A stretch of DNA of 64,000 nucleotides from Tenuifilum sp. 4138str. Lineage in GTDB: Bacteria; Bacteroidota; Bacteroidia; Bacteroidales; Tenuifilaceae. The translations under genes and the position numbers were made by a program. The stretch lies in assembly GCF_041102575.1 (NCBI RefSeq), contig NZ_JBGCUE010000005.1:1-64000 (forward strand), written 5' to 3'. Shown here in pieces: positions 57,355 to 61,280 of this stretch (position 1 is the stretch's first letter; each line of letters starts with the position of its first letter). The notes under the pieces are model-generated. The model was not told the DNA's origin, ran no database searches, and was given only the letters and a program-made list of their open reading frames with translations.

Positions 57355-57382
57355 TTGTAATTTAAAAAAATCAGTATCTTTG
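57355..57382 (+). promoter_or_regulatory. Promoter of tRNA-Pro
   Basis: TTG (57355-57357), 17 bp, TATCTTTG (57375-57382), 16 bp before the tRNA. No such promoter precedes the repeat copies downstream. Confidence 0.6.
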
Positions 57383-57398
57383 CACCGCAAAACAATGG

Positions 57399-57475
57399 CG
57401 GGGTGTGGCGCAGTTGGCTAGCGCACTTGCATGGGGTGCAAGTGGTCGTCCGTTCGAGTCGGATCACCCCGACCA
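57399..57475 (+). tRNA. tRNA-Pro(GGG)
   Basis: Complete 77-nt tRNA with encoded CCA. Acceptor CGGGGTG/CACCCCG, anticodon stem CTTGC/GCAAG with loop ATGGGGT, T arm GTCCG-TTCGAGT-CGGAT. It is the intact founder of the fragment array downstream. Confidence 0.92.
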
Positions 57476-57483
57476 AGGAGAAG

Positions 57484-57510
57484 AAGGAGGCAGTCAAGCC
57501 TCCTTTTTTC
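57484..57510 (+). terminator. Terminator of tRNA-Pro
   Basis: AAGGAGGC (57484-57491), AGTCAA loop, GCCTCCTT (57498-57505), T-run. The same hairpin follows every fragment in the array. Confidence 0.85.
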
Positions 57511-57520
57511 ATTTCCTGCA

Positions 57521-58565
57521 GTTGGCTAGCGCATCCCGACTTGGGTCGGGATGGTCGTGGAGTTCGAGTCGGATCACCCCGACCAAGGAGAAGAAGGAGG
57601 CAGTCAAGCCTCCTTTTTTCATTTCCTGCAGTTGGCTAGCGCATCCCGACTTGGGTCGGGATGGTCGTCCGTTCGAGTCGGATCACCCCGACCAAGAAAA
57701 ATAAGGAGGCAATCAAGCCTCCTTTTTCTTTTGTGATTTTATCTTCCTCATCCATTTCAGCCAAATTCAAGCATTGCAGTTCCCTAATGCGTTATATTTT
57801 GCCTTTCTCTTCAACCAACAACCATCAACTAACAACCATCAACTAATCAATCAGTTGGCTAGCGCATCCCGACTTGGGTCGGGATGGTCGTCCGTTCGAG
57901 TCGGATCACCCCGACCAAGGAGAAGAAGGAGGCAGTCAAGCCTCCTTTTTCTTTTATGAGTTTTTCTCCCTCATTCATTTCAGCCAAATCAAGCATTGCA
58001 GCTCCCTTAAGCGTTGTCTTTTCCCTCTCTCTTCAACCAACAACCATCAACTAACAACCATCAACTAATCATTCAGTTGGCTAGCGCATCCCGACTTGGG
58101 TCGGGATGGTCGTGGAGTTCGAGTCGGATCACCCCGACCAAGGAGAATAAGGAGGCAATCAAGCCTCCTTATTCTTTTGTGAGTTTTTCCCTCATCCATT
58201 TCAGCCAAATTCAAACATTGCAGTTCCCTAAAGCGTTGTATTTTGCCTCTCTCTTCAACCAACAACCATCAACCAACAACCATCAACTAATCATTCAGTT
58301 GGCTAGCGCATCCCGACTTTGTGTCGGGATGGTCGTGGAGTTCGAGTCGGATCACCCCGACCAAGAAGAAAAAGGAGGCAGTCATGCCTCCTTTTTCTTT
58401 TGTGAATATGCTTCCATCTTTCTTTTTAATGTATGCATGGCATTTCCTAAAGGCTTTGTTTTTGCATCTATCTTCAACCAGCAACTATCAACTAATCAAT
58501 CAGTTGACTAGCGCATCCCGACTTGGGTCGGGATGGTCGTCCGTTCGAGTCGGATCACCCCGACA
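57521..58565 (+). repeat. Array of tRNA-Pro 3' fragments, units 1-6
   Basis: Six truncated tRNA-Pro copies at 57521-57585, 57631-57694, 57854-57917, 58076-58140, 58298-58363 and 58503-58565. Each begins in the D loop (GTTGGCTAGCGCA; GTTGACTAGCGCA in unit 6) and keeps the variable region, T arm, acceptor 3' strand and, except unit 6, CCA. The anticodon stem-loop is replaced by TCCCGACTTGGGTCGGGA (loop altered in unit 5). Units 1, 4 and 5 carry GTGGAG in place of GTCCG, which destroys the T stem. Each is followed by a GGAGGC/GCCTCC terminator-like hairpin, and from unit 2 on by a diverged spacer with CAACCATCAACTA repeats. Unit length is 110 bp, then about 205-228 bp. Confidence 0.9.
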
Positions 58566-58730
58566 GGTGAAAAAGAGGAGGCAAAACAGCCTCCTTCTTT
58601 TTTTTCCATGCTGTTTTTTACACATCGTTTAGGGAGAACCGTGATGTATGCTTGCCAAATATCTTCCCTCGCTATTTTCATGACGGGTCAATTTCCACCA
58701 TCAACTATCAACTATCAACGAACAACGAAA

Positions 58731-59100
58731 TTGTTCGAGTCGGATCACCCCGACCAAGAAGAATAAGGAGGCAGTCATGCCTCCTTATTCTTTTCCATGC
58801 ATTTTTTTTACACATCGTTTAGGGTGAACTATGATGGATGTTTCCCAAATATTTTCCCTCGCTATTTTAATGACGGGTCAAATTTCAACCATCAACTATC
58901 AACTATCAACGAACAACGAAATTGTTCGAGTCGGATCACCCCGACCAAGAAGAATAAGGAGGCAGTCAAGCCTCCTTTTTCTTTTCCATGCAGTTTTTTA
59001 CACATCGTTTAGGTAGAACCGTAATGTATGCTTGCCAAATTTCTTCCCTCGCTATTTTCATGACGGGTCAACCATCAACTATCAACGAACAACCAACAAC
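58731..59100 (+). repeat. Array of tRNA-Pro 3' fragments, units 7-8
   Basis: Two shorter fragments at 58731-58755 and 58922-58947 keep only the T loop, acceptor 3' strand and CCA. Each is followed by the GGAGGC/GCCTCC hairpin and a spacer different from that of units 2-5 (containing TTTACACATCGTTTAGG and TGACGGGTCA). That spacer first appears behind unit 6. Spacers end in CAACTATCAACGAACAACGA-type simple repeats. The last spacer ends near 59100 without another tRNA fragment. Confidence 0.85.
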
Positions 59101-60021: not shown

Positions 60022-61280
60022 TCAATATCGTTTAGTTAAGGTTATTTGTCATCCAGAGCGTAGCGAAGGATCTCTCATCGACCCCATGAGATGTATCACT
60101 TGCGCTCAACATGACAACCTTCTCATGAAACGAGCAATAGCAAGTATCACAGAGTTACACAATGTAACACGGTGTTACACAGAGCGTGTGACGTAATATT
60201 CACGAACAACGAGCAACGAATAACGAACAACGCTTCCTGCCCCGTAGGGGTGAAACATTTGCAACTCCATTGTCACCCCAAGCAAAGTCGAGGGATCTCG
60301 ATTTAAGATTAAGAACTCACTAGCTAGCACACGTCTTCAGACGCACAAATAAATCGCCCTGAAAGGGCAAATAACATTAGCCCTGGGTTTTAACCCAGGG
60401 TAATGAGGTATTCAAATTATTTTGCGATGCACGCAATGCATTTTCCATAGAACAATCCTGAAACGTTGCATCGCAAAAGAAAAATCATTACAAAGAATTA
60501 TTTACATGTTCTTTCTTGTCTTGATACAAGAAAGAACCAAAGAAGATCAAGGCTGAAAAGCCCGACCCGATGGGTACCCCGTGGGTGGAACTGCCACGCG
60601 ATACAATTCACCACGCCGTAGGCGTGGCTCATTTGGTATCGCTTACTAAGCCCACCGCCACGTTCCACCCACGACCCATTGCCGGGTCAGGCTTTTATGC
60701 CTCTGCCTGCATCTTCCGCTCCATTCCCTCTCAGGGAAAAGTGCTGGGGTGAGGTTGTATCCCACGAGCAACGAACAACGAGGAACTTACACGAATGACT
60801 TCATTTGTCATCCTGAGCATAGCGTAGGATCTCAAATCGACCCCATGAGATGTTTCGCTTGCGCTCAACATGACAATAGCTTCACGAACAACGAACAACG
60901 CTTCCCGCCCCGTAGGGGCGTAATATTTGTAAAACATTAGTATTCTTAAATCTGGAGCGATGCACACCATACATTTTCCAAAGAGCAAAGGGAAAGCGTT
61001 GCATCGCAAAAGAAAAGCATAGCAAAGAGCAGTCTCCAAAAACACAACAAGGGTTAAAGGGAAATAGATGCTTCGGCTAGCTCAGCATGACAATGGAGCA
61101 GAAGGGAAGGTAGGGTTTTTGTCACCCCAAGCAAAGTCGAAGGATCTCATCAAAGGACTGAAGAGAAAGGAGCAAAGAGATGCTTCGGCAAAGTCTATCC
61201 CTATAAATCAGGACTCAGCACGACAGCGTGATGTTTCGCTTGTACTCAACATAACAAATAACCTTAACTAAAAGACATTG
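60022..61280 (-). mobile_element. Non-coding TIR element, copy B
   Basis: A 1259-bp diverged copy of the element at 16631-17833, in inverted orientation. Its ends form a 30-bp inverted repeat with 3 mismatches (60023-60052 against 61251-61280), sharing the core TTTAGTTAAGGTTATTTGT. Outside lie ATGCATACT (60013-60021) and ATACATATT (61281-61289), 7 of 9 identical, a decayed target duplication. Module order equals copy A read backwards: CCCTGGG/CCCAGGG box near 60390, GCGATGCA hairpins at 60424-60474 and 60957-61007, a 12-bp stem at 60509-60538, and the long hairpin at 60556-60696. Some modules are swapped: A's CCTCTCC-type hairpins are replaced by TCATGTTGAGC boxes. No transposase is present. 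Confidence 0.83.
60556..60696. other. Long structured hairpin inside element B
   Basis: Counterpart of 17211-17351. AAAAGCCCGACCCG... pairs with ...CGGGTCAGGCTTTT, and the inner GTGGGTGGAAC, GCGATA and CACGCC stems are all kept. The inner stem is one pair longer than in copy A because a G-G mismatch there is a T-A pair here. Loops differ between copies while stems are retained. Confidence 0.65.

Follow-up and report, generated by a model that had tools for sequence, protein, structure and literature searches.

In Neisseria, the Ssn/NTS system (dRS3-like repeat) comprises a site-specific GIY-YIG nuclease for single-stranded DNA together with repeated hairpin sites, and in bacteria the 3' ends of tRNA genes are common att sites. 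As for phages, experiments in T6 have shown that tandem amplification can be driven by SegB, a GIY-YIG enzyme which cuts in tRNA genes (PMC13096335). The window analysed here, a stretch of 64,000 nucleotides from Tenuifilum sp. 4138str (contig NZ_JBGCUE010000005.1, positions 1 to 64,000), carries a tandem array of tRNA-Pro fragments, which is probably an ORF-less derivative, amplified by recombination, of a family of hairpin-bracketed GIY-YIG mobile elements specialised on tRNA genes. As judged from sequence comparison, a complete unit of this putative family consists of an intact tRNA, a terminator, a gene for a single-domain GIY-YIG protein of ~80-90 aa, and tRNA halves in which one arm is replaced by a hairpin.

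The tandem array reported in the initial annotation was confirmed, and all of its parts lie on the forward strand. An intact tRNA-Pro(GGG) gene with encoded CCA (57399-57475; ARAGORN and Rfam RF00005, 56.5 bits), preceded by a Bacteroidota-type promoter -7 box, TATCTTTG, at 57375-57382 (pattern scan), is followed by eight 3' fragments. The acceptor 3' strand, CACCCCGA, is present in nine copies, the intact one at 57465 and those of the fragments at 57575, 57684, 57907, 58130, 58353, 58556, 58746, and 58937, and each of the nine is followed, as annotated, by a GGAGGC..GCCTCC terminator hairpin, the first at 57486-57503 and the other eight at 57596, 57705, 57928, 58151, 58374, 58577, 58767, and 58958. 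In total, 11 terminator-like sites were counted, while 2.2 were expected.

The fragments have indeed only two start points, the D loop for fragments 1-6 and the T loop for fragments 7 (58733-58756) and 8 (58924-58947), which run from the T loop onward only, and CCA is kept in all except fragment 6. Their description as truncated copies holds insofar as all eight are 3' fragments, but mere truncation does not describe fragments 1-6, in which the anticodon stem-loop CTTGCATGGGGTGCAAG is swapped for TCCCGACTTGGGTCGGGA (TCCCGACTTTGTGTCGGGA in fragment 5). The replacement is a perfect hairpin, TCCCGAC..GTCGGGA, placed exactly at the anticodon-arm position with the swap boundary after tRNA nucleotide 44, and the resulting order is D loop, hairpin, variable loop, T arm, and acceptor strand. 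Fragment 1 (57519-57585) contains the D loop, the replacement hairpin (57534-57551), the T arm, the acceptor 3' strand, and CCA, and fragment 2 (57629-57694, hairpin 57644-57661) is composed in the same way. They are followed by fragments 3 (57852-57917, hairpin 57867-57884), 4 (58074-58140, hairpin 58089-58106), 5 (58296-58363, hairpin 58311-58329), and 6 (58501-58563, hairpin 58516-58533), and the change that breaks the T stem, GTCCG to GTGGAG, occurs in fragments 1, 4, and 5.

Three types of spacer were counted rather than the two families first described, namely a short one, one of ~130 nt before fragments 3-6, and one of ~140 nt before fragments 7-8 and after fragment 8. A long spacer of type A lies at 57723-57851, and one of type B, which is seen again before and after fragment 8, lies at 58595-58732. 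Repeats of 107 nt with 100% identity, far above chance, are present in the array, and its proposed growth by amplification of defined units is upheld. The Rfam scan of the array gave nothing significant besides the intact tRNA; elsewhere in the window, an Acido-Lenti-1 RNA match at 60355-60400 on the reverse strand (38.5 bits) is above the gathering score. As well, a low-complexity repeat of the CAACCATCAACTATCAAC type was observed between tRNA fragments, both in the window spacers and at L040, L048, L052, and L066, and it also occurs elsewhere in the genome.

The same genome (G000) possesses further arrays. A DNA search identified a second one 3' of tRNA-Pro(TGG), which has its own hairpin, TCCCGCCTGTGGGCGGGA, and in which the letters of the D loop and T arm match its own tRNA. 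The long spacer is common to both tRNA-Pro arrays (86-87% identity of type A to the spacers at G000:C7, L009; BLASTN), and each copy is joined to a fragment of the local tRNA. According to a scan around all tRNA genes, six fragments follow tRNA-Ala(GGC), three follow tRNA-Val(TAC), and one follows a tRNA-Met, and short fragments of the T-loop type are present at three tRNA-Arg genes. The tRNA-Pro(TGG) and tRNA-Ala(GGC) arrays are ORF-less like that of the window, and no credible nuclease gene or remnant was detected in the window array or these sister arrays. The tRNA-Val(TAC) array is built of 354-bp units, each comprising a terminator, an 84-aa GIY-YIG ORF, and a hairpin-bearing tRNA-Val fragment, with three such ORFs lying between its hairpin-bearing fragments. 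Two contigs end at or close to tRNA genes, G000:C20 at tRNA-Val(TAC) and G000:C3 at tRNA-Pro(CGG), and such arrays are a possible cause of these breaks. A generic interspersed REP sequence was also considered as the source of the hairpin and was rejected for this genome, where a generalised hairpin pattern matched only the two tRNA-Pro arrays and one 23S rRNA site.

Searching relatives, like arrays were also found in congener G002. An assembly artefact, which had been named as a possible refutation, is very unlikely, because the G002 genome is a single contig and bears arrays of the same kind at two tRNA-Pro loci. At the orthologous tRNA-Val site, where the upstream gene end and the promoter are similar and synteny was judged by eye, hairpin fragments are present in G000, G002, and G004 and absent from congeners G001 and G003. 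Moreover, the tRNA-Pro(GGG) site is empty in G001, and unit numbers differ between congeners. The tRNA-Pro(GGG) gene itself is followed by two GIY-YIG units at L020, in genus g5 of this family, and carries such units at L015 as well.

The Val-type nuclease matches Pfam PF01541 (E=2.3e-16), and its profile matches are confined to GIY-YIG and the overlapping T5orf172 model, with no Y1/HUH transposase among them. Its invariant residues are Y5, Y16, G18, R27, H31, and E63. The UPF0213-type GIY-YIG protein PDB 1zg2 also matches it (E=0.0012), while no relatives were found in the phage, plasmid, and viral collections. The dN/dS ratio is 0.09-0.20 in pairs with estimable dS, and purifying selection acts on the nuclease. 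On the tree of the nuclease, the identity of the neighbouring tRNA shows clustering, with 33 changes versus 70.8 when shuffled (0/200), which is to be read with regard to a tree of 89 columns only, with many forks open, and to near-copies, which inflate clustering.

Small GIY-YIG ORFs of relatives (about 80) in many cases begin 18-100 bp past a tRNA on the same strand, with matching fragments behind them. For the survey, 80 loci were fetched from GTDB genomes with the Val-type alignment, which belong to Bacteroidales, Cytophagales, Chitinophagales, Sphingobacteriales, and Flavobacteriales. A tRNA on the same strand ends within 600 bp upstream of the nuclease in 67 of the 80 loci (tRNA-Val(TAC) in 55 of these), and none has a tRNA on the opposite strand within this distance; by a rough density of 45 tRNAs per 3.3 Mb, the chance expectation for such proximity is well under 1%. 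Hairpin-bearing tRNA 3' halves lie to the right of the nuclease, and 5' halves often lie to the left. Upstream of the intact tRNA with a nuclease behind it, a copy of the hairpin or of the tRNA 5' half was found at 45/80, some in tandem and a few incidental, and therefore hairpin-bearing halves often bracket both the intact tRNA and the nuclease gene. Tandem arrays of hairpin-bearing 5' halves, which mirror the window array, were observed upstream of intact tRNAs at L185 (80-bp period), L192, L163, L204, and L165. At L087, full-length tandem pseudo-tRNA-Val copies with a replaced anticodon arm lie on both sides of intact tRNA-Val copies. At L120, a copy of tRNA-Arg(CCG) with a hairpin interrupting its D loop and the GIY-YIG gene both precede the intact gene, an arrangement in which the unit appears to rebuild the 5' portion of the tRNA.

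The hairpin itself is conserved. The survey yielded 79 anticodon-arm fragments at 56 loci. A stem of 6 bp or more is formed by 76 of them, as against 6% after shuffling, and TCCCG or TTCCG is found in 73. Pairs in the stem show compensatory variation (T-A/C-G, C-G/T-A, A-T/C-G), which is informative through the variety of pairs alone, since the stems were chosen as paired. The palindrome is located in the T loop instead for Leu, one Met clade, some Val, and Arg, and in the variable loop for Asp, and in some cases the last fragment contains an unrelated palindromic sequence inserted into its T loop. A second palindrome family, the T-loop insertion type CATGAGCGAAGCGAA, was observed in downstream 3' fragments at L046, L059, and L064 (tRNA-Arg) and L062 (tRNA-Ser). 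Several nucleases of another clade, which are not located at tRNAs, are likewise bracketed by their own matching palindromes. For instance, the complete genome G008 has nine ATTCCTGC....GCAGGAAT palindromes, mostly in 164-bp steps, around one GIY-YIG gene (L106, G008:C1:2233454-2235178), and this pattern has 28 matches in G008, none in the control, and 1-2 in G000 and G002. A partnership of nuclease and palindrome is therefore what these elements most likely have in common, which also makes the hairpin the likelier of the putative recognition sites of the nuclease.

Following this evidence, we propose that recognition by the nuclease takes place at the hairpin, or at the arm of the tRNA which the hairpin replaces, and that the nuclease would nick or cut there. 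Repair by recombination between tRNA-homologous pieces might then insert units beside the intact tRNA gene, which would leave the tRNA functional, and recombination could subsequently expand or contract the units or copy them to other tRNA genes, including from one tRNA-Pro gene to the other. The window array would be tied to the nuclease through shared architecture. Because a nuclease gene is absent there, which counts against this explanation, the array may have been mobilised in trans by the nuclease gene at tRNA-Val in the same genome, or may have grown by homologous recombination alone. Two further observations weigh against the proposal: within the Val clade, hairpin position (anticodon arm or T loop), which had been considered as a trait of nuclease clades, does not follow the nuclease phylogeny, and unrelated palindromes occur in the T loops of certain terminal fragments, so that the role given to the hairpin is tentative.

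Classical homing is a possible alternative that we regard as rather unlikely. In this reading, an allele without the unit would be cut by the nuclease within its intact tRNA gene, at the anticodon arm or in the T loop, and the hairpins would do no more than disrupt the target and so shield the displaced remnants. It agrees with the existence of both occupied and empty alleles, with the clustering of nuclease clades by tRNA identity, and with SegB, which cuts inside tRNA genes and amplifies a tRNA segment in tandem in phage T6 (PMC13096335); besides, a disrupted anticodon arm and a disrupted T loop could both fall within one long recognition site. However, the neighbouring intact tRNA has the same 3' sequence and is unprotected, so that cutting it would target the occupied genome itself, which would favour the hairpin as the site. 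Mere disruptors would also be expected to be arbitrary, but TCCCG or TTCCG recurs in the stems, and palindromes bracket the non-tRNA relatives too.

Slippage, which the initial annotation had offered as an origin, would derive the array from a one-off partial tRNA duplication by replication slippage or unequal crossing-over, with no element involved. We consider this improbable: neighbouring units are near-identical and congeners differ in unit number, as it would predict, but the arm swap is seen repeatedly across the phylum, at tRNA genes for Pro, Val, Met, Asn, Ala, and Arg, and a nuclease gene separates the units; such processes could nonetheless account for the expansion of the array. Repeated integration and excision at the tRNA had been suggested as well, and of this suggestion the part concerning a mobile element that uses a tRNA gene stands, while a classical integrase/att element does not. 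Serial integration of tyrosine-recombinase elements at the tRNA 3' end, followed by decay, would explain why the fragments restore the acceptor end. Nevertheless, no integrase ORF was found in or near the window array among the listed translations, as judged by reading, the units in many genomes are only ~110-360 bp with a GIY-YIG gene alone, tRNA 5' halves lie on the left, and the anticodon-arm replacement is left unexplained, which makes this account scarcely credible. A functional array, transcribed into tRNA-3'-half-like RNAs as decoys or regulators, is only slightly less implausible. The CCA ends and terminators are retained and the hairpin is strong, but the acceptor stem cannot form in the fragments, several of them have a broken T stem, and terminators separate the units. 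By pattern scan, no -7 box as good as TATCTTTG lies inside the array and none above chance precedes single units, and hence the tRNA 3'-half RNAs proposed earlier found no support.

A hairpin-bracketed element would account for the many small 'GIY-YIG nuclease family' genes and odd pseudo-tRNAs that have been overlooked in genomes of Bacteroidota, as a minimal selfish unit of about 350 bp with essential tRNA genes as safe homes, and makes the link between hairpin and nuclease testable. It also gives a warning that ARAGORN-type programs report spurious tRNAs in such arrays; false calls (Met, Arg, Ile, Ala, Cys) were observed inside hairpin-bearing fragments at L144, L159, L125, and L108. No description of such units was found in the literature, where coverage was thin for subscription journals, and the mobile unit is, as far as searched, previously unreported. 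Chances are about even that it represents a distinct, phylum-wide class of Bacteroidota elements, made up of a minimal GIY-YIG nuclease with its cognate hairpin, which live as parasites of tRNA genes, keep or rebuild the intact tRNA, and spawn gene-less satellites such as that of the window.

Compared with known systems, the nuclease has the same fold family as the UPF0213-type GIY-YIG protein 1zg2, whose function is unknown and for which we know of no tRNA link. As in tRNA-integrating tyrosine-integrase islands, junctions are marked by tRNA 3' fragments, whereas here there is no integrase, the units are tiny, and the anticodon arm is swapped. The system resembles REP/REPIN-RAYT in that a single nuclease gene is flanked by palindromes which are also present alone as non-autonomous copies, but the enzyme is GIY-YIG rather than a Y1/HUH transposase and tRNA genes are the targets. 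With SegB-type free-standing homing endonucleases of T-even phages, it shares a GIY-YIG gene beside tRNA genes and amplification of a tRNA segment (PMC13096335), and the conserved catalytic domain and the occupied and empty alleles are those of a free-standing GIY-YIG homing endonuclease; unlike SegB, the protein has a single domain of ~84 aa, is found in bacterial chromosomes, and is accompanied by tRNA halves into which a hairpin has been swapped. Finally, as in Ssn/NTS, a single-domain GIY-YIG protein goes with a cognate palindrome of the TCCC..GGGA type, and palindromes bracket the nuclease gene in both the tRNA-type and the non-tRNA relatives, with cleavage of single-stranded DNA being putative here. 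In contrast to Ssn/NTS, remnants of a tRNA harbour the palindrome, and the unit leaves an intact tRNA in place or rebuilds one.
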